A stretch of 64,000 nucleotides of DNA from Chloroflexota bacterium (GTDB taxonomy: Bacteria; Chloroflexota; Anaerolineae; UBA2200), in NCBI GenBank assembly GCA_030607875.1, contig JAUWJD010000001.1, positions 1-64,000 on the forward strand. The letters are read 5' to 3'. Numbering within the stretch: the stretch's first letter is position 1; every line of letters starts with the position of its first letter. Below, in pieces: positions 553-34,500 of this stretch. A model generated the notes under the pieces. It ran no database searches. It had not been told where the DNA came from and saw nothing but the letters and a program-made list of their open reading frames with translations. The translations under genes and the position numbers were made by a program.

Positions 553-3378
553 CTACTCTGCAGCCCGCGTCAGGCGGGTAAGCAATTCCTTCCAGCGCAC
601 GCCTTCCAGACTGGGCAGCACCACGTGAGCCACACCTACCCGCTCCTCCGGTCCCAACCCAACTGTCCACATACCGGCCGCCAGGGCTGCTTCCACGCCC
701 GAGGCGGCGTCCTCCACGACCAAACACTGCGCTGGTGCCAGGCCCAGTTGCGCCGCCCCGTCCAAAAACAGGTCGGGCGCTGGCTTGTGCCGCTGAACGC
801 TGTGCCCGTCGGAAATCGCATCGATGAGGTCAGCGATGCCCAGTATTTCGATCACCGTTCGCGCGTTCTTGCTGGCCGAGCCAATGGCCACCTTGATTCC
901 TGCGGACCGCAGTTGCTCCAGTGACTCCAAGGCGCCAGGCAGCAGATTGGCTGGCGTCACCCCTTCAATGTACTCCAGGTAGTAGCGGTTCTTGCGCGCC
1001 ATCATCTCCTGGATCTGCTCTTCACTCGCTGGGCGATTGCCCAACAAGAGCAGCAATGAATCCCGACGGGACACGCCCCGCAGCGCCTCGTTGGCCTGCC
1101 GGTCAAAGGGAATGCCTTCCTCGTCGGCCAGCCGCTTCCAGCCCAGATAGTGGTATTCGGACGTGTCGGTCAGCACACCGTCCAGGTCAAAAATGACGCC
1201 GCGAATCTCCACGTCCGCGTGGGACGGCCGTAAGTCAAAGTCATACCATTGCCCACGCCAGCACAGTCGAAACTTGAGCCGCGTCCAGCCCGGCGGCAGG
1301 CGGGGATCGGCGACTGGCCCATCCCCGGTCAGGCGGATGCCGCCGAAACCAAAGACGACTGCCTGCCACAGCCCACCGGCCGAAGCCGCGTGGATGCCGT
1401 CTGCGGTGTTGCCCCGTACATCCTCCAGGTCTACCAGTGCCGCACGCATAAAGTGCTCGTAGGCCTGTTCTGGGTAGCTCAACTCGCTGGCCAGGATAGC
1501 GTGGATCGCTGGGCCAAGGGACGAGCCATACGCATGGTCGGTACGCGGAGCGTAGTAGTCCCAGTTGGTTTGTAGCGTCTCACGATCGTACCGGTCGCGC
1601 AGCAAGTAGAGGAGCATCAGCACGTCGGCCTGTTTCAACACTTGTCGCTTGTTGGCCCCATCGATGCCCAGAATAGCCTGCATGGACTGCTTGCGGGGCT
1701 CGTAATCGGCCAGGTTGATGTCTTCCAGATCAAAGAAACCTTCGAACTGCTCAATCAGGCCATTTTCAGGGTCGTGAAGCACCCACATACACTCAATGAT
1801 ATCGGCCCAATGCCTGAGCCGAGCGGGGGTCAGGTCCAGTTGGAGCTCCAGTTCGGTGGCCCGGCCGGGGCACTCTCGTCGCAGCCAGGCTAGCACCTCC
1901 AGCGCCGTCTCCAGGTGCCATTGGACCATGCGGTTGGTGAAGGCATTGTTATCCACATGCTCGTGATACTCGTCTGGGCCGATGATCTCGTTGATCTCGT
2001 ACCGGGCCCGTTCGGCGATCCACTCGGCGCGGCTGCCCCAAAAGACGGCCGTATCGAGAATGATCTCCGCCCCGTAGTCACGCAGAAAATCGTCGTCACC
2101 AGTGGCTCGCCAGTAGTGCCAGAGGGCGTAGGCCACATCGGCGCTGATGTGCAACTCGATGTCGCCAGGCCAAATGCGTACCAGTTCTTCACCTTTCGGA
2201 CCGGGCACCCAACGAGGCGTGACCTCGTCTCCCATTTCGGCGCTCTCCCAAGCGAACATGGCCCCCTTGTAACCTTCAGCCTTGGCCTTGCGTCGCGCTC
2301 CGTCCAGGGTGTGGTAGCGGTAGGCCTGCAGGTTGCAGGCCAAGGCAGGCTGGGTGTAAGCGAGGAAGGGAACAATGAAGATGTCCGTGTCCCAGAAGAC
2401 GTGGCCCCGATAGCCAAAGCCAGACAGTGTCTTGGCTGGAATACTAACCCGTTCATCGCAACGCGGCGCGGCGATCAGTATCTGAAAGAGGTCATAACGG
2501 ATGGCCAATTGAGCTGTGGAATCACCCTCTACGAGCACATCACTGGCCTGCCACACCTCTTCCCAGGCTGATTCGTGAGCGGCGAACAGTGCCGTGTAGT
2601 CAGACAGGCTGGCTAACTTTTCCCGGGCGGCCCGCGCAGGCGCGTCGGTCTCCCGCGAGGTGAAGATGGTCACCTGTTTGTCCAAGGTGATGGCCTGGCC
2701 GGGCCGGGCTCGGAAGGTTGTTATCAGTGTCGGGTAACCTTGGCAGCCGCAGGCATCTATGCGGGCCTCGGCTCCACCCACCACCAACCGGGCAGCCATG
2801 CCCAGGTCGATGGATGAATGGCGGGTGCGGACGTGCAGCCAGACTGTGTCGTTCGCTCCACCCTGGTCCTGCCACTCCCAGTGCATCATACCCAGGTTGT
2901 GCGCGTAGCTGTTGAGACCGGCCTGGATTTTGATGTGGCCCTCAAAGTCCAGCGGCGTAACCTGACATCGAATGGTGAGCACGTGTGGGTCGGCCAGGCT
3001 GCAGAAGCGTTCAAAGTGCAGATCGACCGTGTGGCCGGCCGGGCTGCGCCAGCGCACATCGCGGCTGAGCAGGCCCCGCTGTAAGTCGAGCCGCCGCTGG
3101 TAGCGCAAGATCTGGCCCCGGTCGAGCCGGAAGCGTTCGCCTTCGACAAGTATGGCCAGCGGCAGCCAGTCAGGACAGTTGACCAGTTCGGTGTAGACAA
3201 TGGGAACATCATCGTACACACCGTGTACAAGAGTGGCGGGCCACGCACCGGGATAGCCTTCTTCGAAGGCACCTCGGGTGCCTAGATAGCCGTTGCCCAG
3301 GGTGAACACCGTTTCGTGGTGGTGCAGCCGAATTGGATCAAATTCGTCTTTGGTGACCACCCATCCGGCTTCGTTCAC
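553..3378 (-). CDS. GH65 disaccharide phosphorylase fused to beta-phosphoglucomutase
   Basis: This 941-aa fusion has a family 65 glycoside phosphorylase at about residues 1-715 and a HAD-type beta-phosphoglucomutase at about 727-941. Visible GH65 signatures are RGHVFWDTD (324-332), GPDEYHEH with the probable general acid Glu470, and the phosphate-site region KQAD (582-585). The second domain opens with GVIFDLDGVLTDT, with nucleophile Asp731 and acid/base Asp733. The family phosphorolyses maltose, trehalose, kojibiose or similar to beta-glucose 1-phosphate plus glucose, and the fused mutase would convert that to glucose 6-phosphate. The start is a GTG preceded by GAGGTAAG, just 15 bases after the lacI-type stop, so the two genes form an operon. 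The protein lacks a signal peptide and is cytoplasmic. The disaccharide specificity cannot be read from sequence. Confidence 0.92.
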   Translation of the reverse strand: MNEAGWVVTKDEFDPIRLHHHETVFTLGNGYLGTRGAFEEGYPGAWPATLVHGVYDDVPIVYTELVNCPDWLPLAILVEGERFRLDRGQILRYQRRLDLQRGLLSRDVRWRSPAGHTVDLHFERFCSLADPHVLTIRCQVTPLDFEGHIKIQAGLNSYAHNLGMMHWEWQDQGGANDTVWLHVRTRHSSIDLGMAARLVVGGAEARIDACGCQGYPTLITTFRARPGQAITLDKQVTIFTSRETDAPARAAREKLASLSDYTALFAAHESAWEEVWQASDVLVEGDSTAQLAIRYDLFQILIAAPRCDERVSIPAKTLSGFGYRGHVFWDTDIFIVPFLAYTQPALACNLQAYRYHTLDGARRKAKAEGYKGAMFAWESAEMGDEVTPRWVPGPKGEELVRIWPGDIELHISADVAYALWHYWRATGDDDFLRDYGAEIILDTAVFWGSRAEWIAERARYEINEIIGPDEYHEHVDNNAFTNRMVQWHLETALEVLAWLRRECPGRATELELQLDLTPARLRHWADIIECMWVLHDPENGLIEQFEGFFDLEDINLADYEPRKQSMQAILGIDGANKRQVLKQADVLMLLYLLRDRYDRETLQTNWDYYAPRTDHAYGSSLGPAIHAILASELSYPEQAYEHFMRAALVDLEDVRGNTADGIHAASAGGLWQAVVFGFGGIRLTGDGPVADPRLPPGWTRLKFRLCWRGQWYDFDLRPSHADVEIRGVIFDLDGVLTDTSEYHYLGWKRLADEEGIPFDRQANEALRGVSRRDSLLLLLGNRPASEEQIQEMMARKNRYYLEYIEGVTPANLLPGALESLEQLRSAGIKVAIGSASKNARTVIEILGIADLIDAISDGHSVQRHKPAPDLFLDGAAQLGLAPAQCLVVEDAASGVEAALAAGMWTVGLGPEERVGVAHVVLPSLEGVRWKELLTRLTRAAE

Positions 3379-14706: not shown

Positions 14707-14811
14707 ACAAGCGAAAGAAGGTGATCACCAAGAGTACAATCTGCACAGATTGAAAATCGGAACGCACAAACCTCACCGCAGCAGAACCTAAACTGAGAAA
14801 GGGGAACCAAA

Positions 14812-17800
14812 ATGCGAAAGACTGTGATGAAAGGTTGCGCAGTGTTGACCCTACTGGCTATGCTGGCCTCCCTGTGGCCAGTCGCACTGTCTGCCCAGCC
14901 ACCGGCGCCACCCAAGGCGAAACCGCTGGTCAAGACAGCAGTGGACAAGGCTATGGCCAAGGTGGAACCTAGCCTGCGCCCCCAGGCGGCTGCTGGCGGC
15001 GCAGAGCTGATCAGCATCTCCGTGACGGCTCTGCAGGGGACGGATGTCAGCAAGTACATGGTGGAATCACTGACCCGCCCCTTTATGGACGCTGGGGAGC
15101 AGACCACCTTTGGCAAGGCCAAAGCCGGCAGCATCCTTAAGATTGCCTCTTTGCCCGAAGTGAGCGTGGTTCAACCCCTCACCTTCGCTCCCAACGCCGC
15201 ACCGCCTCCCCCGCCCGATGGCCATATAAGGGAAGTCCCTTCCCTGGAAGTGCTGCGAGGGAGGATAGAGGAACTCAAGGCCATTGATGTGCCCTGGTCT
15301 GCCACGGCCGAGGCCGCCGGAGTTCCCCTGCCGACAGGCTGGTTCGACGTGCTGGACAGCCACAAGTCCTCCAGGGCCTGGGCCAAGGGCTATCAGGGTG
15401 CGGGCGTGCGGGTGGCTGTCGTTGACGACAGCATTGATTTCGCCCACCCCGACCTGATGGGTACCCAAGCCACAGTTAAGGATGAGGCCTCGCCCTACTA
15501 TGGCTGGCCCATGGCCTTCAATCCCTATTCCATGCTCCAATTCGCCTATGACCAGTATCTGGGCTACACCTATGTGGCTGATGGTGCCAGTTGGTACGCT
15601 GACACCAGCGCGACGCCACACGTAGTCCGCAGTTTGCAGGACTTTGAAGATGGCACGGCTAGGCTCTCCTACACCCCCTTGGCTGGTTCCTATGGTGAGA
15701 GGAGCAACGAACATGAGTACATCTTCAACGACACTAGCCAGAGTGGCGTCTACCACATCGGCAGCCACCCCGACGACGCCTTGCTGGATATCTTTGGCGA
15801 GCGGGTGGCGGTGTTAGTGGTGGACGAGAATGAGGAAGGCGTCTACGACACCGTCTATGTGGACGTGGACAACGACTATGACTTGCGAGACGAGAAGCCG
15901 GTCACCAGGGATTCCCCCGTCAGCTACCGCGATATGGATGGCGATGGCTATGCCGACATGTCCGGCGGCATGGTCTACTTCATCGCCGATGGGGGCAACC
16001 CCCTCCCTATTGCCGACTGGTTCTGGGGCCTGGGCTCCGCTGGCAACGGTGAGCAGGACCCTGGCGAACCCGATAACGGCAGCCTGGTTGCCTTCCACGG
16101 CGCTCTGGACGGCTTTGGCTGGGACCATGGCACCCTCTGTGCTTCCAACGTGGTAGGCCAGGGAGTGATTAATGGCGGTGCTCCAGACTATAAGCCGGCC
16201 TATGACGGCCCAGGCACCGGCATGGTGCTCGGTGGGGCGCCGAAAGCGGAGATGGTAGGCATCTCCAACATCTACTACGACTTTTACAACTCGATCCTCG
16301 ATGCCTACACCTTCAGCGTGTATGGCTACGACGGCGTGCCCGATAGCGGCGATGAGATGCAGGTCATCTCGAACAGCTACGGCAACTCGGATATCGACAA
16401 CGATGGCTGGGACTATAACTCGCGCTACATTGCCCGTCGTCAAAGGCTGTATTCGCCCACCACCAGCTTCATCTTCTCCACCGGCAACGGCGCGCCTGGC
16501 TACGGCACGACCGCTCCCCCCTCCCCACCTACGGCCATTGCTGTCGGTGCCTCCACGCAGATGGGCTCCACCGGTTGGGATTCCATCGCCAGCGTAGACC
16601 AGATCACGTACAATGATGTCCAGTCCTGGTCCAACCGTGGTCCCGGTGCCAGGGGAACCGTCGGCGTCCACGTAGTAGCTGAGGGAGCCTACGGAGCTGG
16701 CGCTGTGCCGCTCAATGTGAGCGGCTTCGATGGCTGGAACGCCTGGGAGACTTGGGGCGGCACCAGCCGTTCCGGTCCAGTGGCCATGGGCAACCTGGCC
16801 CTGGTCTACCAGGCCTACAAGAAGAGGACAGGTGACTGGCCTACGTATGAGGAAGCTCGTCAGCTCCTGATGTCTGGCGCCACCAACGTTCACAACGACG
16901 TCTTTACCCAGGGCGCTGGGTCCGTCAACGCCGACCGCGCCACAGATGTGGCTGGCGGCCACTACGGCGTCTACATCGGCCCTGACAACTGGACTGCTGG
17001 CGACTACCGCGGCACGGAGTACGGTGGCTTTGCCAATATCGTGCACCCAGGCAATACCGCCAGCCAGACCTTCACTATCTACAACCCCAGCTCCCGCGAC
17101 ATCACTGTTTCCCTCTCTCGTGACACCTTGGTCAGGGTTGGGGAAATGGACTTTGACTTCACCACCGACGACATCTCCAAAGAAGACGAGTTCGAGGGCC
17201 GAGAGGATCCCCCTCAGTACATCGTCCGGAACGTGACCGAGGACATCCCTGCGGGGACAGACCTCTTGGTGATACGCATGAGGTATGACTACGCCAACTT
17301 TGACGTTGATGGCGATTACAATGTCGACAACAACTGGTGGTTGGTACCCTATGACTGGACGGACGTGAACGGAGACGGAGAGTGGTGGGAGGATCTAGAC
17401 GGCAACGGCGTGCTCAACTATGGGGAGATGGCCCCAGGGGAGTTCGTCCGCTTTGCCCACAACGGCAACGACAACACCGTCAAAGAGGTACGGGTGCAGC
17501 AGCCGCTGGAGCGCATGCACGACGGCATCCTGGTAGGTGTGATCCACGATGTCAAGACTGAGGCTGTGCCCACCACCATGCTCCATTTCAAGCTAGAGTT
17601 TTACCAGCACAGTGACTGGGATATGCTGAGCTTGAGCGATGCTACCCTCACCGTGCCTGCGGGTAGCTCGGCAACCTTTGATGCCACCGTCAACGTCCCG
17701 GCTGACACGGCGATCGGGCTCTATGAGGGGGCCATCCTAGTCGATGACCCTGGCTTCCTTCACAAGATCTACTTGCCCATCGTCCTCAAGGGAAGCGGGA

Positions 17801-20724
17801 TGGGCGGTGCCGCTGCGGCAGCCGCTCAGCCTCCAGCTCTCACGCCAGCCAACTCGCACCAGACCGTAGTTCCCGTGGTGGTCAACGTGGCTGCGGAGTT
17901 CACCGATGTCCTGGAGCTGGGTGGCGCGGCGGCCGATACCCCGGACTTGCTCTACAACAACGGTGCGGTAGGTGGCCACTTTACCTGGAACTGGCGTGCC
18001 GAGTCGGGTGATTGGCGCTTCTTCTTCTTCGACGTTGCTACTCCCCCAACGCCCGGCACCAAGCTCATCGTCCGCGATGTGTGGGTGGATGACAGCCCGC
18101 CGACGGATCTTGACACCTTGATCATGGGGCCCACCAGCGACCGCTTCAGCGATCCCGGTCATCCCGACAATGCCCGCTATGACTGGTCGGATCCAGACTA
18201 CTACGGCCCCTACACCCTGGACACTGCGGGCAATAGCCCCAACACGTACATGGGTAGTGGCAAGTGGCGCTTCGATACAGCCACCGGCAGCGCCGAGGAA
18301 TGGGTCACAGCTCCGCTGCAGGAGGGCCTGCACCTTATCGCCGAGCACAACGTGCTCTTCTCTGGCGAAAAGTTCTTCGTGCCCTTCAGCAAGACGGTAG
18401 CTACCGTCTCCGTCGAGCCTGGGGAGATCGAGATCACCACCCCAGCAGACAACGGCTCTGTTCCCATCACTTTCATCTCGGGCATTGAGTTGGCCGGCCT
18501 CGCTGTAGATGCCTACGGCCTGAGCATCCCAGAGGTCTTGGAAGATCAGGAAGCCTACCAGGACGATCCTGGTGACCCGGCGACAGCCAGCTACAGCTAC
18601 GTCTTCACTGTAGACCACGCGTCCTCACTGGCTGTGAGCAGCGGCGACGCACCTGGTCAGGACTTGGACCTCTACGTGTACTACGATGCCAACGGTGACA
18701 GTGTCTTCGACTATCCCGGCGAGGTGATCGCTTCATCCACCACGCCCACTGATGAAGAGTTCGTGTCAGTAAGGCTCCCCGCCGATGGCCAATACATGGC
18801 CGCCGTCCATGGTTGGGAAGTCAGCCCCAGCCCCAGCACCTTCACCCTCGTCATGGATATCGCACAGGGCTACGACTTGAGCATTGGCGGCTTGCCCAGT
18901 GGCACCATCCCAGCCGGCACACCCATCGTGCTTCAGATGGGCTACAACAAGCCTATGGCAGTAGGTGAGACCTGGAAAGGCGAGGTCCTCCTCGGACCGA
19001 CGGCGGCGCCAGCAGCTCTGAGTATCCCGGTGACCATCCATCGGATAGCGCCGTCCCTCACCATACTACACAACAACGACGGTGAGTCTGACCTGCTGGG
19101 CGATGACGACTTTGGTGGCGTAGCCCGCTTCGCCACCGTGGTTGATCAGGTCCGTATCGAGGTGGGTGAGTCCCATCCGTTGCTCCTGGTCACCTCTGGC
19201 GACAACTTCCTGGCCGGGCCGGAGTGGACAGCGAGTCTGGAGAAGGGCGTGCCCTTCTATGACTCCATCGCCATGGACCTCATCGGCTACGACACCATGT
19301 GCATCGGCAACCACGACTTTGACTTCGGCCCGGACACGCTGGCCGACTTTATCGAAGGCTTCACTACCTCACAGGTGCCCTTCCTGAGCGCCAACCTCGA
19401 TTTCACCGCCGAGCCACGACTGCAAGCGCTGGTGGACACCGGCCGCATCGCGGCGAGCGTGGTTATCGAGGTGGGGGGCGAGGAGTTCGGTATCGTCGGG
19501 GCCACCACGCCCAACCTGACCTTCATCTCCAGCCCGCGCAACGTCGTGGTGGGCCAGGATGTGCAGGCCGCTGTACAGGCGGAGATAGACGCGCTCGAGG
19601 CGGGAGGAGTGAACAAGATCATCCTCATCAGCCACTTGCAGGGCATCGAGGAAGACATGATGCTGGCACCACAACTCAGTGGTGTGGACGTCATGATCGC
19701 CGGCGGCGGCGACGAGTTGCTGGCTAACCCCGGCGACCTGCTTGTCCCCAACGGCGACATCTACGGGTCCTATCCCATCATCGTCCAGAACGCCGACGGT
19801 GCCGACGTCCCCGTCGTCACCACCGCCGGCCAGTACCAGTACCTCGGCCGGCTGGATGTGCTTTTTGACGACGACGGGAATGTCATCGCCTTCGGTGGCG
19901 GTCCAATCCGCGTAGCCGGTGGCGAGCAACCCGACGCAGTCGAGCCCGATCCAGACGTGCAAGCCCAGGTCACTGATCCTGTCGCAGCCTTTGCAGCAGG
20001 CCTGGCGGAGAACGTGATCGCCACCTCTGAGGTGCCCCTCGATGCTCAGAAGAACTTTATCCGCTCGCAGGAGACCAACGAGGGCAACCTGATCACCGAT
20101 TCCTTCCTCTGGCAGGCCATGCGGCTCTACGCTGACTACGGCGCACCCGAGCCTGACATCGCCCTGTGCAACGGTGGCGGCATCCGCAATGACAGCACTA
20201 TCCCGGCTGGCGAGATCACCGAACTCGACACGTTCAATATGTTGCCCTTCCCCAACTTCCTCACCATCGTACCCGACGTGACCCCTGAGGACTTTTGGGC
20301 GCTGCTGGAGAACGCTGTCTCGCGCATCAATGCTGAGGGTAATCGGGAAGGCTCTGGCACCGGGCGATTCGCTCAGATCGCTGGCTTCAGCTTCACTTAC
20401 GACTCCCGCCGCGACGAGGGGAGCCGGGTGCTGGAGGCAGCCCTGGACGACGGCACGGTGATGATCGAGAGTGGGGCGATCGCTCCCACCGCGCGCAACG
20501 TCAATGTGACCATCGTGGACTTTCTGGCACGAGGCGGCGACGAGTACTTCGGCGGGCCTCCAGGCCGGAGCGAGTTCTTCATCCTGGGTACGTCCTACCA
20601 GCAAGCTCTGGCCGACTACATCCAGGCATCCGTCGCCGAAGGCGGCCTGGGTGGGCTCATCTCCGCTGCTCAGTACCCAGAGGGCGGCGAAGGGCGCATC
20701 ACCAATCTAGCGCTCAGCCCATAG
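14812..20724 (+). CDS. Secreted subtilisin-like (S8) protease fused to 5'-nucleotidase
   Basis: This 1970-aa protein starts with a Sec signal (MRKTVMKG... LSAQ, about 30 residues) nearly the same as that of the next gene. A subtilase domain spans about 190-710, with probable triad Asp205 (VAVVDD), His439 (WDHGTLC) and Ser652 (GGTSRSGP). About 230 residues separate Asp and His and include an Asp-rich stretch resembling calcium sites. Beta-rich domains follow to about 980, then YLPIVLK (987-993), an Ala-rich linker and more beta domains. From about 1415 a metallophosphatase starts (HNNDGESDLL, SGDNF, GNHDFDFG), followed by the 5'-nucleotidase C-terminal domain (ETNEGNLITD, NGGGIRND). A ribosome site AAAGGGGA precedes the ATG. 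The protein is predicted to be extracellular, cutting proteins and releasing phosphate from nucleotides. The fusion is unusual. Confidence 0.88.
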   Translation: MRKTVMKGCAVLTLLAMLASLWPVALSAQPPAPPKAKPLVKTAVDKAMAKVEPSLRPQAAAGGAELISISVTALQGTDVSKYMVESLTRPFMDAGEQTTFGKAKAGSILKIASLPEVSVVQPLTFAPNAAPPPPPDGHIREVPSLEVLRGRIEELKAIDVPWSATAEAAGVPLPTGWFDVLDSHKSSRAWAKGYQGAGVRVAVVDDSIDFAHPDLMGTQATVKDEASPYYGWPMAFNPYSMLQFAYDQYLGYTYVADGASWYADTSATPHVVRSLQDFEDGTARLSYTPLAGSYGERSNEHEYIFNDTSQSGVYHIGSHPDDALLDIFGERVAVLVVDENEEGVYDTVYVDVDNDYDLRDEKPVTRDSPVSYRDMDGDGYADMSGGMVYFIADGGNPLPIADWFWGLGSAGNGEQDPGEPDNGSLVAFHGALDGFGWDHGTLCASNVVGQGVINGGAPDYKPAYDGPGTGMVLGGAPKAEMVGISNIYYDFYNSILDAYTFSVYGYDGVPDSGDEMQVISNSYGNSDIDNDGWDYNSRYIARRQRLYSPTTSFIFSTGNGAPGYGTTAPPSPPTAIAVGASTQMGSTGWDSIASVDQITYNDVQSWSNRGPGARGTVGVHVVAEGAYGAGAVPLNVSGFDGWNAWETWGGTSRSGPVAMGNLALVYQAYKKRTGDWPTYEEARQLLMSGATNVHNDVFTQGAGSVNADRATDVAGGHYGVYIGPDNWTAGDYRGTEYGGFANIVHPGNTASQTFTIYNPSSRDITVSLSRDTLVRVGEMDFDFTTDDISKEDEFEGREDPPQYIVRNVTEDIPAGTDLLVIRMRYDYANFDVDGDYNVDNNWWLVPYDWTDVNGDGEWWEDLDGNGVLNYGEMAPGEFVRFAHNGNDNTVKEVRVQQPLERMHDGILVGVIHDVKTEAVPTTMLHFKLEFYQHSDWDMLSLSDATLTVPAGSSATFDATVNVPADTAIGLYEGAILVDDPGFLHKIYLPIVLKGSGMGGAAAAAAQPPALTPANSHQTVVPVVVNVAAEFTDVLELGGAAADTPDLLYNNGAVGGHFTWNWRAESGDWRFFFFDVATPPTPGTKLIVRDVWVDDSPPTDLDTLIMGPTSDRFSDPGHPDNARYDWSDPDYYGPYTLDTAGNSPNTYMGSGKWRFDTATGSAEEWVTAPLQEGLHLIAEHNVLFSGEKFFVPFSKTVATVSVEPGEIEITTPADNGSVPITFISGIELAGLAVDAYGLSIPEVLEDQEAYQDDPGDPATASYSYVFTVDHASSLAVSSGDAPGQDLDLYVYYDANGDSVFDYPGEVIASSTTPTDEEFVSVRLPADGQYMAAVHGWEVSPSPSTFTLVMDIAQGYDLSIGGLPSGTIPAGTPIVLQMGYNKPMAVGETWKGEVLLGPTAAPAALSIPVTIHRIAPSLTILHNNDGESDLLGDDDFGGVARFATVVDQVRIEVGESHPLLLVTSGDNFLAGPEWTASLEKGVPFYDSIAMDLIGYDTMCIGNHDFDFGPDTLADFIEGFTTSQVPFLSANLDFTAEPRLQALVDTGRIAASVVIEVGGEEFGIVGATTPNLTFISSPRNVVVGQDVQAAVQAEIDALEAGGVNKIILISHLQGIEEDMMLAPQLSGVDVMIAGGGDELLANPGDLLVPNGDIYGSYPIIVQNADGADVPVVTTAGQYQYLGRLDVLFDDDGNVIAFGGGPIRVAGGEQPDAVEPDPDVQAQVTDPVAAFAAGLAENVIATSEVPLDAQKNFIRSQETNEGNLITDSFLWQAMRLYADYGAPEPDIALCNGGGIRNDSTIPAGEITELDTFNMLPFPNFLTIVPDVTPEDFWALLENAVSRINAEGNREGSGTGRFAQIAGFSFTYDSRRDEGSRVLEAALDDGTVMIESGAIAPTARNVNVTIVDFLARGGDEYFGGPPGRSEFFILGTSYQQALADYIQASVAEGGLGGLISAAQYPEGGEGRITNLALSP

Positions 20725-20751
20725 GCCGCGCACGCTGGCCGAAGATGCAAT

Positions 20752-20777
20752 GACCCCGCCCCCATGGGGGCGGGGTC
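20752..20777 (+). terminator. Perfect 26-bp palindrome after the subtilisin-nucleotidase gene
   Basis: The arms GACCCCGCCCCC and GGGGGCGGGGTC meet around a central AT, 27 bases after the stop codon, and are followed by a pyrimidine tract (CTCTTCC). This is probably a transcription terminator. Confidence 0.65.
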
Positions 20778-21291: not shown

Positions 21292-24200
21292 ATGAGAAAG
21301 ACTCTGAGCAAGGGCTTGGCAGTGCTGACCGTGCTGGTCATGCTAGTCTCACTATTCCCAGCCACACTGTCAGCCCAACCTCCTGTTCCGGAGGACAAGC
21401 CGATGCACCTGGCCAAGACGCGATACCTCAAACCGAAAGATGCGCCCAATCCGATCGACTACCGGCGACTGCGCAAACGTGAGAACCTGTTGATGCAAGG
21501 GCGCACAGCCGAGGCAGCAGCCCTGGCCAAGACAGGCAGCGACAACTTGTTGGTCATCCTGGTCGAGTTCGCAGGCATAGACACCGCGACCTGGAACCCG
21601 GGCGACATCTGGGATCCCATCGGCGACCCCGCCGCAGTAGATTACGAAGACTATGGCGATTGTTCGGGCATCATTACCGAGGCGCAGACCTTCACCTACA
21701 GCGGACCGCTGCACAACGAACTGGTCAAGCCCACTTCACGAGACCATGCTGGCTACAACGCCATCTGGACCGAGGACTTTGGCCGCAGGCACTATGAGGA
21801 CATGCTCTTCGGCGATGGCGTGTACATCGAATACGCCATGGACAACGGCGAAGAGGTAGTCATTGACCTGCGGGGCTACAGTCTGAGGCAGTACTACGAA
21901 GAGCAGTCTCAGGGCATGTACACCGTAGAGGGTGATGTCGTTGGTTGGGTGCAGGTGCCCCACTCTGAGGCCTGGTATGGTGCCGACATGTGCCCTGGCG
22001 CTCGTTCCGTTGGTCACTCGCCACTCGCGGACGGCTTTTTCCCTGACGGGGGCGACGAACGCAGCCTGGTGCGGGACGCCATCGATGCCTGTGTGGCCAC
22101 CTACCCGGACTTTGACTGGGCCAAGTACGACCAGGATGGTGATGGTCTACTCGATCGGGTGATGATCGTACACGCCGGCTATGGGGAGGAAGACAGCAAG
22201 ACTCTGCTCTGGGAATCCGGCGTCGGTGAACATGCCATCTGGTCACATAGCTGGACGGTATTGCCGTACTATGACATCGGTGATACCGGCCTGCAGATCG
22301 GTCCCTACACCATGATGGCCGAGAACGGTACTGTGGGTCTCTTCGCTCACGAATTCGCCCACAACCTGGGTACCATTGACCTCTACTCCTATGGTCCTGG
22401 TGAGACATCGGCTGGCTTCTGGAGCCTGATGGCCGATGACTGGGGCGGAGGCTGGCCGCAATCTGCCGTCCCACCGGGGTTGGATCCCTGGCACAAGTAT
22501 CTCCTGGGCTGGACCGATCCCGTCGTGCTGAACACCATGAGCCCCGTGACTGAAGTAACGGTCGGTCAGGCCTGCATACCCCCCGAAGGAACGGAAGACG
22601 CAGTGCTGATCAACCTGCCACCACAGATCGAGCAGCCTGTACCGCCAGCCAGTGGCGAGTACATGTGGTGGAGCGGCAAGGAGAACTGGCTCGATGTCAA
22701 GCTGACTCTGGCCGCACCTCTCGATCTCACAGGGGCAATGTCCCCCACACTGACCTTCAAGACGTTCTATGACATCGAAGAAGGCTGGGACTTTGGCTTC
22801 GTACAAGTGTCCACCGACGGCGAGACCTGGACCTCGCTTCCAGGCACAACTACAACGGACGAGCACGACCCAGACTGCTTCTTCATCGACGAGATGCCCG
22901 GCTACACTAGCTTTAGTGGAGACTGGCTCGACGAAACCGTAGACCTGAGCGACTATATCGGCGAAAGCAGCGTCTGGATCCGCTTCCGCTACGAGACAGA
23001 CCCATATACTCTCGGCCAGGGCTGGTACCTGGATGACATCGCCATCACCGCAGACGGAGAGGGCATCTTCTCCGACGATGTCGAGATGATGGACAGCAAG
23101 TGGGTCGTCGAAGAGTGGGGCCGCACCGACGGTTATGTCACCTATCCCCACTACTATCTGGCTGAGTGGCGTAACGCCAGCGGGTTCGATGCTGGCCTGG
23201 TCACTGGCCGCTACAACATCAAGGACTTTGGCATGTTGCTGTGGTACCGCAACCTCAAGTACACCGGAAACGAAGTCTTTGACTATCTGGCCGACGGCCC
23301 AGCCTTTGGTCCCAAGGGTGCCTGCGTGCTGATAGACGCGCATGCTGAGCCCTGGCGCTCCTCAACCTCGGACTATGTCAATGAAGCAGCCAACGTGCAC
23401 GGTCGTGTGCAGATGCGCGATGCTGCCTTCGGCCTGCGCGATACGCAGCCCTTCCAGTTGACTGAGCGTTGGCGCAACCTTAACCCTGACGAAGAGTTCG
23501 GTTCACGGCCTGCTGTACCGGCCTTTCACGACTCCCTAGGCTACTATCCTGGCCTGGAATACGTGCAGCGCGGGCCAAGCGCCGCGAGCATCCAGTGGTT
23601 CAGCAAAGACTGGGATGCCAGCGCCATTGTGCCAGCCAGAGCGCACTATGGCATCGCACCGCCCAAGTACTCCGAAGGTGAGCCATTGCGCTTCGGCGGC
23701 GAGCCTTATCCCGGTGGCCGCTCTGCCTGGTGGTGGTACCCGATGGGCGTGGGCTTTGGTGGCACGACAGGCAATCCGGGTGAGCACTGCTACGGCGTGC
23801 ACATCAAGGTCGTCGAAGAAGCACAAGACCTCTCCTGGGGCAAGCTGAAAGTCTGGAACAACACCGACACCTTCCTCGGCTGGATGATGGTTGACAAGGA
23901 GCAGGCTGTTCCGGGCGATGTCCTGACCTACGTGCTGCACATCAAAGATGCTGCCAGCACCAAGGCTCTGACCACGGTTGACATCCCCATTCCCCAGGGT
24001 ACTACCTTCGTCGAAGGCTCTCTGACCGGCGCCAAGTTCGTCGTCGATCACGCGCATAGCCAGTTGCACGACAGAGGACGCATCATCTGGGGAGGCCGGG
24101 CAGGCGGCAAGGCATTGCGCATGCCGGATGCTCACATCATCTACCAGGTGCAGATCGACCCGGATATGCTAGGCTCGATCGAGAACGAAGCGCTCGTGAC

Positions 24201-24570
24201 CATCGAAGGGCGCAGGAGCTACTCCTGGAAAGCGATGACCACCCTGCCGTTCGTAGAAGTCTCTCTGGCCGCTCCGAGTTACGTCGGCACCAGATCTTCA
24301 ATCCGCTACACCATCTCCGTCACGAACGAGGACGTGGGCACGCTGGAGGACGTGGAGGTGATTGCTTCCTGGACAGGGGGAGCCTACATCGTCTATCCGA
24401 ATCCCAACTCCTGGGTGATCCCCAGCCTGGCTGCTGGAGAAACGTGGACCAAGGATTTCACCTTGCAAACCTTCTCCACAACCACCGGCGAGGTGGTCGC
24501 CAAAGTCGAGGTATCACACCCCTGGATCGAGACAGTCACAGCCAGCGCGACGACAGCCATCGTGCGCTAG
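21292..24570 (+). CDS. Secreted M6-family (immune inhibitor A-like) metalloprotease
   Basis: This 1092-aa protein has a Sec signal peptide closely related to that of the preceding gene (MRKT.SKGLAVLTVL...LSAQ). The peptidase M6 domain covers about 70-430, with zinc motif HEFAHNLGTID (His353, Glu354, His357, Asp363). An InhA-type MAM-like region follows (about 455-600, with GWDFGFVQVSTDGETW and SVWIRFRYETD). The C-terminal 250 residues contain two beta-sandwich repeats like DUF11 (GDVLTYVLHIKDA, YTISVTNEDVG). It probably degrades extracellular proteins. Unlike the neighbouring exported proteins it lacks the Tyr-Leu-Pro tail and ends in ATTAIVR. The ATG follows AAGAAAGGGG supplied by the leader repeat. 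Confidence 0.9.
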   Translation: MRKTLSKGLAVLTVLVMLVSLFPATLSAQPPVPEDKPMHLAKTRYLKPKDAPNPIDYRRLRKRENLLMQGRTAEAAALAKTGSDNLLVILVEFAGIDTATWNPGDIWDPIGDPAAVDYEDYGDCSGIITEAQTFTYSGPLHNELVKPTSRDHAGYNAIWTEDFGRRHYEDMLFGDGVYIEYAMDNGEEVVIDLRGYSLRQYYEEQSQGMYTVEGDVVGWVQVPHSEAWYGADMCPGARSVGHSPLADGFFPDGGDERSLVRDAIDACVATYPDFDWAKYDQDGDGLLDRVMIVHAGYGEEDSKTLLWESGVGEHAIWSHSWTVLPYYDIGDTGLQIGPYTMMAENGTVGLFAHEFAHNLGTIDLYSYGPGETSAGFWSLMADDWGGGWPQSAVPPGLDPWHKYLLGWTDPVVLNTMSPVTEVTVGQACIPPEGTEDAVLINLPPQIEQPVPPASGEYMWWSGKENWLDVKLTLAAPLDLTGAMSPTLTFKTFYDIEEGWDFGFVQVSTDGETWTSLPGTTTTDEHDPDCFFIDEMPGYTSFSGDWLDETVDLSDYIGESSVWIRFRYETDPYTLGQGWYLDDIAITADGEGIFSDDVEMMDSKWVVEEWGRTDGYVTYPHYYLAEWRNASGFDAGLVTGRYNIKDFGMLLWYRNLKYTGNEVFDYLADGPAFGPKGACVLIDAHAEPWRSSTSDYVNEAANVHGRVQMRDAAFGLRDTQPFQLTERWRNLNPDEEFGSRPAVPAFHDSLGYYPGLEYVQRGPSAASIQWFSKDWDASAIVPARAHYGIAPPKYSEGEPLRFGGEPYPGGRSAWWWYPMGVGFGGTTGNPGEHCYGVHIKVVEEAQDLSWGKLKVWNNTDTFLGWMMVDKEQAVPGDVLTYVLHIKDAASTKALTTVDIPIPQGTTFVEGSLTGAKFVVDHAHSQLHDRGRIIWGGRAGGKALRMPDAHIIYQVQIDPDMLGSIENEALVTIEGRRSYSWKAMTTLPFVEVSLAAPSYVGTRSSIRYTISVTNEDVGTLEDVEVIASWTGGAYIVYPNPNSWVIPSLAAGETWTKDFTLQTFSTTTGEVVAKVEVSHPWIETVTASATTAIVR

Positions 24571-26300: not shown

Positions 26301-29300
26301 CTACCGCGTAGCCCGCCGCATGATGATGGGCAGATAGATGTACCTCACCTCTGGTAGCTCCGCAAAGAACACGTAGCTATACCCCTGGCGGCTATTGGAC
26401 ACCACAATGGCTCGCACCAATGCTGTACGAGGCACCGTATCAGAGACCAGCCTAGTAAAAGCATAGCCGTTGATATCGGTGGACGTCGTGTAGGCTGTGC
26501 CCATACTCTCGTAAAAATGTCCATAGTCGGTGACGAACTCTATCTCCACACCATCGAGGACGTGGTTGCGGAACTCATCCATCACCAACGCCGAAACCTG
26601 TGAGATCGACCTTCCATCAGCGTAGATGGTCTGCGGGATTCCCCAGACCTCGACCAGCCAGGGTTCACCCGGCAGGAAGAGCACGTTGGTCGTGGTCACG
26701 ACTGAGTCTGCTGTTGCCGTCAGAGTGACCGTCCCCGCGATAGACTGCGAAGTCAGTGTCCCAGTTACCAGGCCACCCACTGTCCAGCGAGGCAGAGTTC
26801 TCATCCCCGACTCGCGGAAGATGCCCAGATCAGTCTCCAACGTCACCAGCGTGCCGTCCTCGACAACGGTGTCGCTGCAATCTTCCACCCTGGCTACGAC
26901 GATGATGTCGTAGAAATTCACATCCCCGTTGATCGGTATCTGGCCTGGGTCGGCCGTGATTTGGACATCTTCTGACAGGCCAGGCAGGATGTTGAGGTTG
27001 GTAAAGCCTGGGAAAGCAGGGGGAGAGACCACGTCAATCTGTTCCAGAGTAACCGGCCACGTTGTCAAGAGCTTGTCCAAGGAGGTGACCGTCGTGGAGA
27101 CCACGCCCCCGCGCGTGTAGGCCATTTCAGGCGAAGCACGCACATAGTTGTACTGTGATGCAAACTGTACAGGTGTGCCATCCTTGACTAGGTTGCCACA
27201 GATATCATACACCATTGCCTCGATCACCGCCTGACCACCGCAGTTGCGGATGCTGGGCGGAACCGGCGCAGCCACACTGATCAGATCAGCGGGGCCTGGC
27301 TCAAGCATCAAACTCGTGATAGCGACAATGGAATCAGCCGTAGCGCTGATCACTGCCGTGCCCATGGTGCAGTCCGATTTGAAGGTGGTACGAGCCACGC
27401 CGTTCGTCGTGCTCACGACCGACGGCGTCGTGAAGGTGCCCAAGCCGTTCACCGTAAACGTGACCACCGTACCATCCTGCACGTTATTGCCACCGCAGTC
27501 GCGGACTACTGCCCGGATCTCGGCGTAGAAACCACCCACCTGCAGCACGTCCGGCGAAGAGCTGAGGCTAATGGTATCTGGCAGGCCTTCCTCCAGGTCG
27601 ACCGTGATCAAATCGGTCGCCTCCTGGGTCTCACGCCGAGCCAGGATGTATACGTGCAGTACGCGCGGCCCAAAAAGGTACCCCTTGGTGCGCAGCGTCG
27701 AGGTAGCGACGCCATTGACCGTTGCGGTCAGCCTGGGGTACATGTCCCCACGCTCACCTTCCACCACGTTAAAGTTCACCTCCGTACCGTCTTCAACCAG
27801 GTTGCCAAAGGCATCCCTAACGGTAGCCGTGACCACTGCCTCATCGCCACAAAGGCGGATGAGTGTAGGATACCACGTTGAAGTGATCACGTCAGGAAAG
27901 CCAGGCAGGAACTGCACCTGCACCGTGTCCGTAGGCATACCCGCACACGCCGGCATGACCTGTGCTGTTACCGTCGCAGTGGTGACCGTCATACTAGAGG
28001 CCAGCGCAGCGAATGCTACACCATTCGTCGTCGTAGCAACGAGCGTAGTGTCACTCGAAACCGGGAAGGACCCTGCAGTAGTGGTCAGGGAAACTGGCAC
28101 GCCATGCACCAGATTGCTGTTGCTGTCGGTGACGGTGATGCGTAACGTCGTGGTCACTGTGCCATTGCTGACCCCGATTGCCGGTGGATGAGCCGAGATA
28201 CCCACCAAAGTCGGTACCACTACGGAGACCCACACCTGGCCACTGCTGTTATTGCCGGCCGCAGGATCTGGAACACTTGAGACAATCTCAGCAACGTTCG
28301 GGCGGTTGACAGGAACACACCAGGACGACGACTGATCAGGCCGCGCCACCAGGGTGATCACACCCGTTGCACCAGGAGCCAGATCACCGACGTCCCACAC
28401 CCATTTGCGCGGCGCGACCAAAGTCGGAGGCTCATTATCGGGTGAGGAACTGGAACGCACGCGCAGGAAATTGACCGGCAGCGTATCGGTGATCGTGGTA
28501 TTGGTTGCTATCTCCGGCCCGCTGTTGCCGTAGGTGATGGTATAGGTCACTTCCTGACCAGAGTTCAGCGACGTTGGGAACGCGCTCTTGGAGATGTACA
28601 GGTCTGCGGCCTGGAAAGTGACGGTTGTCGTATCCGTAATGATGGGATAGAGCAGCGCAGACGTGGGCGTGATGATATGACCATCATACACCGTGGCCCA
28701 GATGTTCGCAATGCCAGGAGTCGTGGTTGTGGTGAGCGTAGTGGTGATCCGCCCCTGTGTTGCCACTACGCCACCCGAGCGGAAGGCATCAATAAAGACT
28801 GGAGCGCCACCAACCGGACGCACCTCGATGGTGTGCGCGCCCACGCTGGGCCAGGTAGCGATGACATCCTCAACGCGGAACTCGTTCACCACAGGGCTGG
28901 CCATGTTGATGGTCGTCACCAGACCGCCATCAACGTACACATCTGCCGAACCAGCGGTCGTGCGCTTCATGTACAGCAATGACACTGCTTGGCCGGTAAA
29001 GCCCCACGAGATACTCTCTGAGCTAACTGATGCTCGGGCAACCGCACCGCCACTAGCACGCTGGTAAGGTGGGGTGCTCAGAATCGTCCAACCGGCAGTC
29101 CTTGTAACAGCACCGCCTTCGGCCTCAGCGTAGCCATAGGGCACGCTGCCCAGACTGGTGGTGATGCCGATCATTGTGCCTGGCTGCGCACGGGTTCCAG
29201 CTACGTCGCGAACGGTGGCCGTGATCGCGGATGTGGACATGCCGTCCGCAGGCAGGCTGGTTGGATCAGCTTCAACGGTAATGGTATACGGCACACAGAG

Positions 29301-30986
29301 GGCCGGGTCATAGATCACAGTTCCCAATGGCGCCGGGTTGTCATAGTCATGCCAGATCTCGTCCTCGATTGCACGATAGGTGCCCACGCCCCAGTAATTG
29401 TACGTGGCCGTAATGTCGGCGCGGTATCTGTACAATTCTAGCTCATAACCACTGTCGCCATAGACCTGATTGGCATTGGCGACACTGCCGCCGATGATCA
29501 ACTGCCGCCCAGCCCAAGTCCAGGGTGCACCGATATCCCGCCCGACGTGAATACCCCTGGTGCCACCAGTGATGGTGTTCCCATGCACATCCACAGTCTG
29601 CGCGCTGAGGGCGACGAGTGACTCCTGCCAGATGCGGACGCCCTGCTCACAGCCGGTGATGCTGTTCGCAGACAGGGTCAGGCCTGCGGCGTCATCGCGT
29701 ACGTAGATACCCGCTTCGCCTGCCGCACCTGAGCCGGTGATGGTGTTGCCAGAGACCACCGAGCCCGCATAGGACTCCGCAACGAGGATGTCATAGTCGT
29801 AACCGGCAGTACCGCCGTTTGAATAGAAAGTGCTGCCAGAGACTGTGGTTGGTGCCGTTGAAGCACCAGTTGGGTCTTCCAGCCATACCCCCACCCTGGC
29901 GTTGTTGTAGACGGTGCTGTCACTGATTACGCCGCTGGAACCCCGCAGCCGCATGCCGTAATTGAAACCATGGATGACGTTGTTCTCGATGCGATAGCCA
30001 GTCAGAAACACCCAAGGAGGCCCAGTTGCGATATCAAAGTTTCGAATGCCGTATGTCGCCCCGGAGCTCTGGATGGTAAAACCCGATATGTTAACGTCGC
30101 TGGACAGCAACTCGACCGCCGTATTGACCGCAGGCAGCACGGTGATGATTGTGGTAGCTGGACTTGCCCCGGACAGGCTGATGGGCTTGGTCACCGTGAT
30201 ATACTGATTGTATGTGCCCGGCCGGACAGTGACGGTGCCATAGTCAGCCACGGCCGCAATGCCGTCGCGAATGCTGTTGAACGCGGTGACACCCCACAGG
30301 TGACCATCATTGGTACCGGCCGAGGTATAGCCATCGTCCACCCAAACGCGCGTCGGCAAGAAGCGGACTGCATCCGCCACCACATTGTTGCCTGTGCCCC
30401 CTACGGTAGTGGAATCGTCCAATTCCACGTATCCCACGGTGCCCCTGACGAACCGATAGCGTCCCAAGGTGAGCCATCCAGAGTCCGCGCCGCCGGGGGC
30501 AGCAGTCCCGTCCGCCTTTTGCTGCTGGTTCACGCGGTGGCTTGCAGTGCCTCCGTCGTAGTAGATGGTGTAAAGGGCATCGTCCCTTTGCGTGCCAGCG
30601 GTCGAGTTGGCCCAATAGTGCACCTGTACTTGATACCTACCCTCGTCCAGATCAGGCCGCCATTCGGCAACGTCTGCACTGTCATCCGCAGCCGTATAAA
30701 TACAGTCTCCCTGATATCCGCCAGCACCAAAGGCCAGCCAGTTGCCCGTAGGATAGGGCGGAGGAGGACTGAAGCCTGGTACATCGCCATCATCGATCAC
30801 GTAACCGGTCGTTGACGGCAGTGCCTGAATACCGGCGTCAGGCCCAAAGGGCTCATCAGGCGCAGCCCATCCACTTTCTGGTCCCTGCGCCCAGGCGGGA
30901 AGCAAAGCCAGTGCCCCGAAGAGCGCACCGACCAAGAAAAAGAATGCGAGCACTGACTTGAGAATGCATAGTCCACGACGATTCAT
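26301..30986 (-). CDS. Secreted modular adhesin-like protein (golvesin, beta-helix, DUF11, invasin Ig domains)
   Basis: This 1561-aa protein reads, from the N-terminus: signal peptide (1-35); golvesin-like beta domain (about 59-213, VIDDGDVPGF to DAVRFLP); right-handed beta-helix of NosD/Pbh1 type (about 215-546); an invasin Ig domain carrying an inserted carbohydrate-binding-like module (about 568-760, WGFTGQAVSLLY to FIDAFRSG); a DUF11 domain (about 796-923); six tandem invasin-type Ig domains (about 925-1545); and the tail YLPIIMRRATR. The ATG at 30986 is preceded by AGGAGGGG. An upstream in-frame ATG would start inside leader-repeat copy 4. The protein is predicted to be extracellular and to bind surfaces, glycans or cells. 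No enzymatic motif was recognised. Confidence 0.82.
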   Translation of the reverse strand: MNRRGLCILKSVLAFFFLVGALFGALALLPAWAQGPESGWAAPDEPFGPDAGIQALPSTTGYVIDDGDVPGFSPPPPYPTGNWLAFGAGGYQGDCIYTAADDSADVAEWRPDLDEGRYQVQVHYWANSTAGTQRDDALYTIYYDGGTASHRVNQQQKADGTAAPGGADSGWLTLGRYRFVRGTVGYVELDDSTTVGGTGNNVVADAVRFLPTRVWVDDGYTSAGTNDGHLWGVTAFNSIRDGIAAVADYGTVTVRPGTYNQYITVTKPISLSGASPATTIITVLPAVNTAVELLSSDVNISGFTIQSSGATYGIRNFDIATGPPWVFLTGYRIENNVIHGFNYGMRLRGSSGVISDSTVYNNARVGVWLEDPTGASTAPTTVSGSTFYSNGGTAGYDYDILVAESYAGSVVSGNTITGSGAAGEAGIYVRDDAAGLTLSANSITGCEQGVRIWQESLVALSAQTVDVHGNTITGGTRGIHVGRDIGAPWTWAGRQLIIGGSVANANQVYGDSGYELELYRYRADITATYNYWGVGTYRAIEDEIWHDYDNPAPLGTVIYDPALCVPYTITVEADPTSLPADGMSTSAITATVRDVAGTRAQPGTMIGITTSLGSVPYGYAEAEGGAVTRTAGWTILSTPPYQRASGGAVARASVSSESISWGFTGQAVSLLYMKRTTAGSADVYVDGGLVTTINMASPVVNEFRVEDVIATWPSVGAHTIEVRPVGGAPVFIDAFRSGGVVATQGRITTTLTTTTTPGIANIWATVYDGHIITPTSALLYPIITDTTTVTFQAADLYISKSAFPTSLNSGQEVTYTITYGNSGPEIATNTTITDTLPVNFLRVRSSSSPDNEPPTLVAPRKWVWDVGDLAPGATGVITLVARPDQSSSWCVPVNRPNVAEIVSSVPDPAAGNNSSGQVWVSVVVPTLVGISAHPPAIGVSNGTVTTTLRITVTDSNSNLVHGVPVSLTTTAGSFPVSSDTTLVATTTNGVAFAALASSMTVTTATVTAQVMPACAGMPTDTVQVQFLPGFPDVITSTWYPTLIRLCGDEAVVTATVRDAFGNLVEDGTEVNFNVVEGERGDMYPRLTATVNGVATSTLRTKGYLFGPRVLHVYILARRETQEATDLITVDLEEGLPDTISLSSSPDVLQVGGFYAEIRAVVRDCGGNNVQDGTVVTFTVNGLGTFTTPSVVSTTNGVARTTFKSDCTMGTAVISATADSIVAITSLMLEPGPADLISVAAPVPPSIRNCGGQAVIEAMVYDICGNLVKDGTPVQFASQYNYVRASPEMAYTRGGVVSTTVTSLDKLLTTWPVTLEQIDVVSPPAFPGFTNLNILPGLSEDVQITADPGQIPINGDVNFYDIIVVARVEDCSDTVVEDGTLVTLETDLGIFRESGMRTLPRWTVGGLVTGTLTSQSIAGTVTLTATADSVVTTTNVLFLPGEPWLVEVWGIPQTIYADGRSISQVSALVMDEFRNHVLDGVEIEFVTDYGHFYESMGTAYTTSTDINGYAFTRLVSDTVPRTALVRAIVVSNSRQGYSYVFFAELPEVRYIYLPIIMRRATR

Positions 30987-31000
30987 CTTCACCCCTCCTG

Positions 31001-31079
31001 CTACTGCTTCGTGCACCGAAGGTTGCTAAACCCCTTGGGCTCGATTGTCACATAGAAACGCGTGCCTGAGTTTGACAAT
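31001..31079 (-). repeat. Dispersed leader repeat, copy 4
   Basis: Read toward the 1561-aa protein gene it contains ATTGTCAAACTCAGGCACGC, GGGGTTTAGCAACCTTCGG and GTGCACGAAGCAGTA, then immediately the ribosome site AGGAGGGG. CTTCG and CGAAG can form a small stem around GTGCA. Confidence 0.7.
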
Positions 31080-31593: not shown

Positions 31594-34500
31594 CTAGCGA
31601 TAGCGATTCTTCACGATGATCGGCAGGTACGCCTTCCAGCGCATACTGGGCGGCGGCGTAGGCGTGGGCTCGAAGTAAAAGTCCACGTAGGTTTCGGCAC
31701 GCCTGCCGCCAGCTGTGGCCGCCACACGTGCTATGCCAGGTGTGGTACTGGAGATCAAGACAGCGCTGGCCCTGCCGCCCAGGGTAGATGTGCTGTACGA
31801 TATCCCGGTTTCGAAGCGGCCCAGATCGGTGGAAAAGACCACTGCCGTCCTATCGGCGACATGATTGCCAAAGAGATCCTTTATCTCCGCACTGATGGTG
31901 GAAGTATACACACCATTGGCCGGAATAGACCAGGGATCAGCCGTGAGCAAGATCTCAAAGGGCGGACCGGGGATGTATTCGACAACCACGTTGGCCTCGC
32001 GCTCGCCAGAGGTCACCCGGATGATTGCTGAGCCAGCCACCTCAGGTGAAGTCAGGGTTGAGAATGCCCAACCGCTGGCGGTGGTCGTCGATTGCGGCGT
32101 TAAGCTGCCCTGACCAGAAGCGATGGTAAAGGTAACCAGCGTGCCATCCGTCACCGGATAGCCGCCACAATCCAAGACGCGCACCCTGACCGTTGCCCGG
32201 CTGCCACCCGCCATCAGCCGCGGCGGTTCCACTGATGCCTCTATGTAATCAGGCGGGCCGACCAGGAAGGTGATCCCGTACTGATCAACCACCGAAGTCC
32301 GGTACCGCTCTGGCCAAGCCCACACCGTAGCCGGACCTGGTACGGTGCCAGCGGATATGATGGCCTGCGCCACGCCGTTGGTCGTACGCCCGCCGTCTAT
32401 CGGTTCGACATCGCCCTGTGGTGTCACATCAAAGACGACCACCGTTCCATCTGTGACGAAATTGCCATAGCGATCTTTCACTACCACTGTCGCCAGGGCC
32501 GTGCCCACACAGCCGGGAATGACGCCCGGCTCGACCGAGATGATCTCGATGGAATGGGGTTCACCAGCGCTGAAGGTCACAGCCACAGCAGCTGAATCCG
32601 CTCCTACTGCCCCTCTGACGATCGCTGTGCCAACCACTCTCGAGGTCAATAGAACGTCGGCCACGCCGCCCAGCGTGTTGCCGAAGGTCGTGCTGATCAT
32701 CGTATCCGTGAAGTAACCAAAGCTCGTGGTAAATGTCACCACGGTCCCATCCAGGACGGGGTTACCGAATTCGTCTGTGGTGATCACAGTGATAGCCGAG
32801 TTGTTGCCTACCGTCAGGTCGGTCGGATCGGCGGTAATGGTCACCCGTGGTTCACCAGGTACGAAGCGCACCGTGGTGGTGCCAACGGCCGAACCAGCAA
32901 ACGCTGATACGGTGGCTGTAACTGCCGCTGCGCCTGAGGTCAGAACAGTGGAAGCGCGGCCTTGCACCGTGGGGACAACCAGCGGAGCGATGGTGCCATC
33001 CGTGGTCGCAAAGGCCACCGAAGTGCCATCCGTAACCGCGTTGCCAAGCCGGTCAACAACCACAGCCTCGATGATAGAAGTAGCCCCTCCTACCACTATT
33101 TCATCCGGGTCAGCGGTAAGCGTGATCCTGCGTGGATTGAGTGGCGTAAAGACCACCTGCGTCGTAGCGCTGATCGAATCCACAGTCGCCGTGATTATCG
33201 CGGTTCCGGCCACTGTTCCCGAGGTCAGATTGACTGCCACCGCGCCATCAGTTGTGTAACGCACCCGCTCCTGGGCCGCTGGGAACCCTCCCAAGCTGGT
33301 CTTGAACGTTACAGGCGTCCCATTGGCTATCGGATTGCCGTACACGTCCCAAATCGTAGCGCGGAGCAGAGAGGTGTTGCCGTCCACCGGAATGCTGCCT
33401 GGCATCGCTGTCAGCGTCATGGTCACCGGCACGCCTGGCACGATGGTGGTCGTGATCCTCCTGGTATTGTTGCCTCTTCTGGGGTCAACGGTGCGCGACT
33501 CGATGACCGCCGTGTTGGTGATCACTGTCTCAGATGGCCAGAAGCGGTTCTCGGCCACGATACCACCAAAGACAATGATCCCGCTTTCTCCAGATGCCAG
33601 GGAGCCCAGCGGCCACTGATACTGCAGGTGTGGTATCACCGTCACCGGTGTCGTGTTGAAGAAAGCATCGCGCAGCCAAGCACTATCGAGCACGCCGTCC
33701 TCGATGACATCGTCAAGGTAGGCATTAGTGGCGGTGATCGGGCCTAGGTTCTGATACTCGATGGTAAAGGTGATGCGGTGTCCGACAGACACCGGGTCCG
33801 TTGGCTGAATCGTCTTGGTGATGATCAGATCAGCCGGATCAAAGCGCACGTCGGCAAAGCCGTGCAGCAAAACTGGGACGGCGGTGACCGTCTCCGACAC
33901 GGCGGTAGCGGCTACTGTAGCGATACCCACAGTTGTCTCAGAGGTCAGCACAGCCAGGGCCTGCTCACCGCTGGTGGTCAGACCGGAGCGGAAAGCATCC
34001 ATCCAGATTCGCCCAGTGCCCACACGATGCGTCAGTCGCAGTAAGTGCGTGTCGGTGGGGCTGCCACTCCAGGTGAAGGTTCTTTCAGCCCGCCAGGTGA
34101 GCGGACCGCTCATATCGATGCTGCCCAGGAAACTGCCGTCCACGTACACGTCACCGATTCCACCAGCTGGTGCCAGGCGGTAAACGATGGAGGCGCCGTT
34201 CCCACGGAAATTCCAATAGACGGAAGCACCATCCACCGTTGTACCGATGTAGCTGCCACCACTCGCCGCAGCGTGAGAACTGGTGGGCCAGCTACCGGGT
34301 GGCGACTGGTTCACGTCCGCGTCCTCCGCATATCCGTAAAGCATTGAGCCGAGGGACGTGGTGAAACCAACGAAGAAGCCATCCAGCACCGGATTCCCGC
34401 CGGTATCCAGCACCACTGCCGTGATCGTCGAGGTGGACAGGCCATCAGCCGGGATGGCCGGAGGATCAGCCTCGGCCAGACATTGCTGCGCGGGGCCAAC

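Follow-up and report, generated by a model that had tools for sequence, protein, structure and literature searches.

A Chloroflexota S8 subtilase fused in frame to a variant UshA-type 5'-nucleotidase module

Introduction

A single long gene in a Chloroflexota genome appears to encode both a subtilisin and a 5'-nucleotidase, which raises the questions of whether such a protein is real, where its two halves came from, and what they would do together. The window, by which we mean the whole stretch of 64,000 nucleotides that was analysed, corresponds to contig C49. It belongs to a metagenome-assembled genome (MAG) of 3.37 Mb, with a completeness of 84% and a contamination of 3.6%. The named relatives in the genome collection were Chloroflexota, namely Thermoflexales and Anaerolineae MAGs.

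Results

One open reading frame with a signal peptide

Translation of the window gave one open frame on the forward strand (14812-20724), which runs from ATG to TAG and encodes 1970 amino acids. The signals around the gene and at its N-terminal end were as follows:

14795..14804, + strand: ribosome-binding-site-like sequence GAGAAAGGGG ahead of the ATG, read directly
14812..14895, + strand: signal peptide MRKTVMKGCAVLTLLAMLASLWPVALSA, residues 1-28, with a predicted cleavage site (translation and tblastn)
14896..15396, + strand: probable N-terminal propeptide, residues 29-195, putative in function, preceding the S8 domain
20752..20777, + strand: strong G+C hairpin, 28 nt past the stop, resembling a terminator but lacking a proper T run, read directly

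Residues 29-195 were conserved among the relatives that align from residue 1. The terminator scan did not report the hairpin at 20752-20777, and the promoter scan gave nothing above shuffles. The single frame, the signal peptide, from which export is predicted, and the presence of both domains bear out the original prediction of a single secreted polypeptide.

Pfam annotation placed SurE, M20 and M50 peptidase-family genes nearby, and an M6 InhA-like peptidase and a second S8 protease downstream. The M6 gene (21292-24570) starts with a signal peptide and a leader resembling those of the fusion gene: residues 1-42 of the fusion protein had a 68% identical tblastn match at the start of this adjoining peptidase, and the two genes were 61% identical over the first 126 nt. 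Elsewhere in the window, on the reverse strand, a GH65 phosphorylase and a HAD hydrolase shared a single frame (553-3378), a pairing that we take to be known. Two giant secreted-type proteins, of 4274 aa (31594-44418) and 1571 aa (26301-31016), were also encoded on the reverse strand and contained Invasin_D3/Big_1 repeats, beta-helix, Golvesin_C and DUF11 domains.

The subtilase half carries a complete catalytic triad

The first 1410 residues, referred to here as the S8 platform, contained a full-length peptidase domain followed by a long C-terminal half:

15397..16920, + strand: Peptidase_S8 domain, residues 196-703 (Pfam PF00082, E 1e-24)
15424..15426, + strand: catalytic Asp205
16126..16128, + strand: catalytic His439
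16765..16767, + strand: catalytic Ser652, in GGTSRS
16921..19041, + strand: C-terminal half of the platform, residues 704-1410, whose end point is conserved among relatives (weak fn3-like/NPCBM and PPC-like matches; comparison with relatives)
18598-18810, + strand: weak PPC-like match, residues 1263-1333 (Pfam)

The PF00082 match scored 87.8 bits against a cut-off of 21.8 and covered profile positions 1-288 of 288. Asp205, His439 and Ser652, the triad named in the original prediction, were checked residue by residue and were each invariant in an alignment of 14 sequences, so that assignment was correct; N559, which we take as the oxyanion Asn, was invariant in the same alignment. The spacing from the Asp to the His is long, about 230 aa. 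By profile, the solved structures nearest to the S8 domain were the subtilisin-like 3afg, SubHal (5fax) and TPP2 (3lxu), and the S8 half shared about 50% identity with f29 and f51, its nearest relatives. The protease part thus looks intact, and proteolytic activity is predicted from its sequence.

The nucleotidase is attached where relatives carry other tails

The comparison covered 45 relatives whose open reading frames reach the end of the platform. In all 45, homology ended at query residue 1400-1410, beyond which the proteins either stop or bear tails of other kinds. Tail types were judged from the complete ones, as several others end at the ends of the fetched loci. The protein stops at this point, sometimes after a short YLP-type tail, in L044, L047, L127 and L133; the remaining tails were CBM96 (L126), DUF11 (L124 and L051), MAM/Cleaved_Adhesin with DUF11 (L116), and cohesin with CarboxypepD_reg and dockerin (L036 and L130, from G033 and G093, respectively). 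The tails of L036 and L130 are cellulosome-type modules carried on a protease.

19039..19056, + strand: fusion junction, residues 1410-1415, between IHRIAPSL and TILHNND (platform ends in relatives; DNA homology to genome G058 from 19055)

The nucleotidase begins at residue 1415, the same point where the platforms of relatives end and other tails attach, which indicates that the fusion used an existing module-exchange site. Large Chloroflexota S8 subtilases, such as L126, L036, L044 and those in MAG records JANWVF010000003 and JAJCYU010000164, share residues 1-1410, the triad, the long Asp-His spacing and the beta-rich C-terminal part with the window protein, but they end at the platform or bear DUF11, CBM96, cohesin-dockerin or MAM tails, and never a nucleotidase.

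The position of the junction also bears on whether the gene yields one enzyme or two. S8 proteases self-process, and the modules occur as independent units in other proteins, so the subtilisin could cut itself off after export and release two ordinary, separate enzymes from one gene. We consider such a polyprotein improbable, given that only about five residues, with no obvious linker, separate the end of the platform from the nucleotidase.

The nucleotidase half has a separate history

The second half of the protein consists of a nucleotidase module, here called NT_B:

19054..20721, + strand: variant UshA-type 5'-nucleotidase module (NT_B), residues 1415-1970 (Pfam, profile matches and tree)
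20014..20547, + strand: 5_nucleotid_C domain (PF02872), residues 1735-1912 (Pfam, E 9.7e-22)

The PF02872 match scored 78.2 bits against a cut-off of 23.6, and this half matched solved 5'-nucleotidases, including the Thermus enzyme 2z1a (1.2e-62) and CD73 (about 4e-47). The best match of NT_B, at 84% identity, was the last (second) unit of a nucleotidase-only protein encoded by G058, a genome that belongs to another family; the next-best matches were at 56-62% identity. At the DNA level, homology to the G058 unit was 82% and extended over 19055-20735, from the start of the domain to 11-12 nt past the stop. The comparison with the G058 unit gave a dN of 0.09 and a dS of 0.67, and only one of 54 clade-invariant positions is broken in NT_B, so the module looks to have been kept under constraint. 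The other unit of the G058 protein had a counterpart on contig C15 of the window's genome, at 82% identity.

A sister genome of G058, G023, encodes a signal peptide, CBM96 and two nucleotidase units without an S8 part, and this layout is plausible as the parent type. G058 was considered as a second fusion and rejected: its nucleotidase frame meets the contig start after the end of a CBM96-like domain, and no S8 part is expected upstream, since the same layout in G023 opens with the signal peptide and CBM96. Synteny with G058 was likewise rejected. S8 and M6 genes follow there as well, with only a 28-34% match to those of the window, and this indicates clustering by type rather than orthology.

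Other members of the clade of NT_B are free-standing or are preceded by either an ExeM/NucH-type nuclease or a choice-of-anchor I domain. Judged from these comparisons, the two halves of the window protein have separate histories, and the parsimonious course would be that, in the lineage of the window, the S8 platform captured a nucleotidase unit, in that direction. Among other UshA-like sequences, a frame with one in-frame TGA (G000:C6:27956-28603, locus L003) recurs in many relatives and probably belongs to one of the 'UshA-like (seleno)protein' families of NCBI.

The metal site is altered while nucleotide-handling residues are kept

The original prediction described a full metallophosphatase, and this part did not hold, since PF00149 had no match in the window protein even at E 0.1 in the Pfam search and three metal-ligand histidines are replaced. 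The alignment located the replacements in two motifs:

19078..19086, + strand: D1423-G-E1425 in place of the D-x-H metal motif
19705..19713, + strand: G1632-G-D1634 in place of the H-x-H metal motif

Under the metal-ligand assignment that we take from UshA structures, the changes in UshA numbering are H43 to E1425, H252 to G1632 and H254 to D1634. E1635 was considered as the counterpart of H254 and rejected, as the ungapped alignment places D1634 there. The UshA-numbered residues D41, D84, N116, H117, D120, H217 and the Arg pair R375/R410 are kept. In the window protein, the retained residues include the catalytic His and Asp (H1501 and D1504), N1500, D1464 and the phosphate Arg R1751 and R1792, and F1853 and Y1912 occupy the positions of the aromatics that stack the base in CD73. 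UshA/CD73-type 5'-nucleotidases (PF00149 with PF02872) resemble the module in their two domains, the catalytic His-Asp, the phosphate Arg and the stacking aromatics; the module differs in its three replaced histidines, the missing PF00149 match and its place behind a protease. The residue H117 has been described as catalytic in UshA and CpdB (PMC7922932).

In a quick tree version built from 60 aligned nucleotidase domains, NT_B fell within a clade of 31 domains with an SH-aLRT of 100, which includes domains from Deinococcus, Skermanella and Paracoccus plasmids. Throughout these 31 domains, D-x-H is changed to D-x-E (or D-x-D) and H-x-H to G-x-D or a variant of it, whereas all 29 domains outside the clade retain H252 and nearly all of them have D-x-H and H-x-H. 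The variant clade (L134-L136, L094-L103, L140, L144-L156 and window 19054-20721) spans Chloroflexota, Deinococcota and Pseudomonadota. Within it, ExeM/NucH-type proteins (such as L096, L098 and L038) also carry this nucleotidase at the C-terminal end of a secreted hydrolase, but their partner is a nuclease that produces the substrate, whereas the partner in the window is a protease.

The altered site suggests either that metal use differs in this clade or that the domain only binds, and phosphatase activity is likely but not assured because of the altered metal ligands. On the binding reading, the fusion is real and NT_B is a non-catalytic tail for nucleotides or nucleic acids that replaces the CBM96, DUF11 or dockerin of the relatives. 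The loss of three UshA-type metal ligands and of a PF00149 match is compatible with such a tail, as is the binding or structural nature of the other modules found at that site. Nevertheless, H1501, D1504, N1500, D1464, the phosphate Arg and the stacking aromatics are all kept, and mere binding makes less sense for a clade that is free-standing in many genomes or lies behind nucleases. We regard the binding tail as rather unlikely; in our view a changed use of metal by an active enzyme is more probable than a dead domain.

A broader reading, which we put forward only tentatively, is that an undescribed UshA-like clade has swapped its metal-ligand histidines for carboxylates (D-x-E, G-G-D) and may use other metals, such as Ca, Mg or Fe, and that its module has passed among secreted nucleases and CBM96-nucleotidases and now to a subtilisin, giving a bifunctional protease-nucleotidase. 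No description of the metal-site variant was found in the open-access literature, and one elsewhere is possible.

The fusion was found once among about 730 genomes

We searched for the protein in 60 relatives, in 396 genomes from the class and 400 from the phylum, and in every genome of the collection that belongs to the order or to the G058 family; together these made up about 730 different genomes. No second S8-nucleotidase fusion was found in these Chloroflexota genomes, so that both domains occurred in one frame in one of about 730. Among the open reading frames of the fetched loci, 81 had the S8 part and 57 the nucleotidase, and only that of the window had both. The S8 platform was found in no other genome of the same family, which, like the single fused copy, weighs against the explanation favoured below. 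Among plasmid records no single place covered 80% of the query, with the best listed ones covering 28%. Neither the domain libraries nor open-access papers yielded a family with this pairing, in agreement with the original prediction that no well-described one exists; one described elsewhere is possible.

A single occurrence could also mean that no such protein exists and that assembly or binning joined two genes from different genomes at 19040-19055. The contamination of the MAG and the different nearest relatives of the two halves speak for this reading. Several observations argue against such a chimera. The join keeps the frame and coincides exactly with the domain boundary, the point at which other tails follow in relatives, no exact repeat of at least 15 nt surrounds the junction in the window or at the C15 nucleotidase locus of the genome, and the junction occurs at a single place in the genome. 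The G+C content is alike on the two sides (0.607 and 0.630; neighbours 0.59-0.60), and 53 of the 54 clade-invariant residues are kept. The C15 gene, moreover, contains a unit of the type that accompanies the NT_B-like unit in the G058 protein, so the window's lineage really had such modules. An assembly chimera is therefore unlikely.

According to the original prediction, two separate genes in all relatives would refute the fusion. The two parts are indeed separate in the other genomes searched, but the position of the junction at the attachment site of relatives, its frame, the lack of such repeats and its single occurrence in the genome lead us to see in this a fusion specific to the lineage, and not an artefact.

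Discussion

The explanation that we favour, with a probability of roughly 0.6, is that an S8 platform with interchangeable C-terminal modules gained a variant UshA-type nucleotidase by in-frame fusion, giving a bifunctional enzyme for the scavenging of necromass; within it, we presume which way the module moved, that the protein is secreted and that both parts are active, as well as the metal use and a benefit of tethering. In this lineage, a secreted S8 subtilase (residues 1-1410), whose C-terminal modules are interchangeable in its class, may have captured the nucleotidase at its mobile tail site. The probable source was a gene for a secreted nucleotidase of several units, of a type that persists in G058 and partially on contig C15 of the window's genome. 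The exported protein would mature as a subtilisin and then digest extracellular protein, and the tethered domain would convert 5'-nucleotides to nucleoside and phosphate. Set among neighbouring secreted-peptidase genes, the enzyme may serve in scavenging necromass or cell debris, and protein breakdown would in that case be coupled to phosphate release.

Extracellular nucleotides need to be dephosphorylated before uptake (PMC8289736), and in other bacteria two-domain secreted nucleotidases of the same fold perform this step (PMC8475336). Fusions of the UshA-CpdB type (PRK09419/YfkN) are also fused secreted hydrolases that include an UshA unit (PMC10454023), but they combine two nucleotidases and no peptidase, and the score of the window protein falls far short of the PRK09419 cut-offs. 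Taken as a whole, the original prediction held as to a single secreted polypeptide that unites an apparently intact protease with a nucleotidase, and as to the lack of a described family in the material searched, but not as to a full metallophosphatase. The domain combination looks real, lineage-specific and new in the material searched; its parts are of known kinds, and the metal-site variant had gone unrecognised.

If real, this protein would be the sole protease-nucleotidase fusion found in the searched genomes, and a subtilase that is widespread in Chloroflexota would have at its C-terminal end a docking point for interchangeable modules, a second enzyme included. The changed metal site points to a cross-phylum clade of 5'-nucleotidase-like proteins that annotation based on PF00149 may miss, and whose metal use and activity are directly testable.
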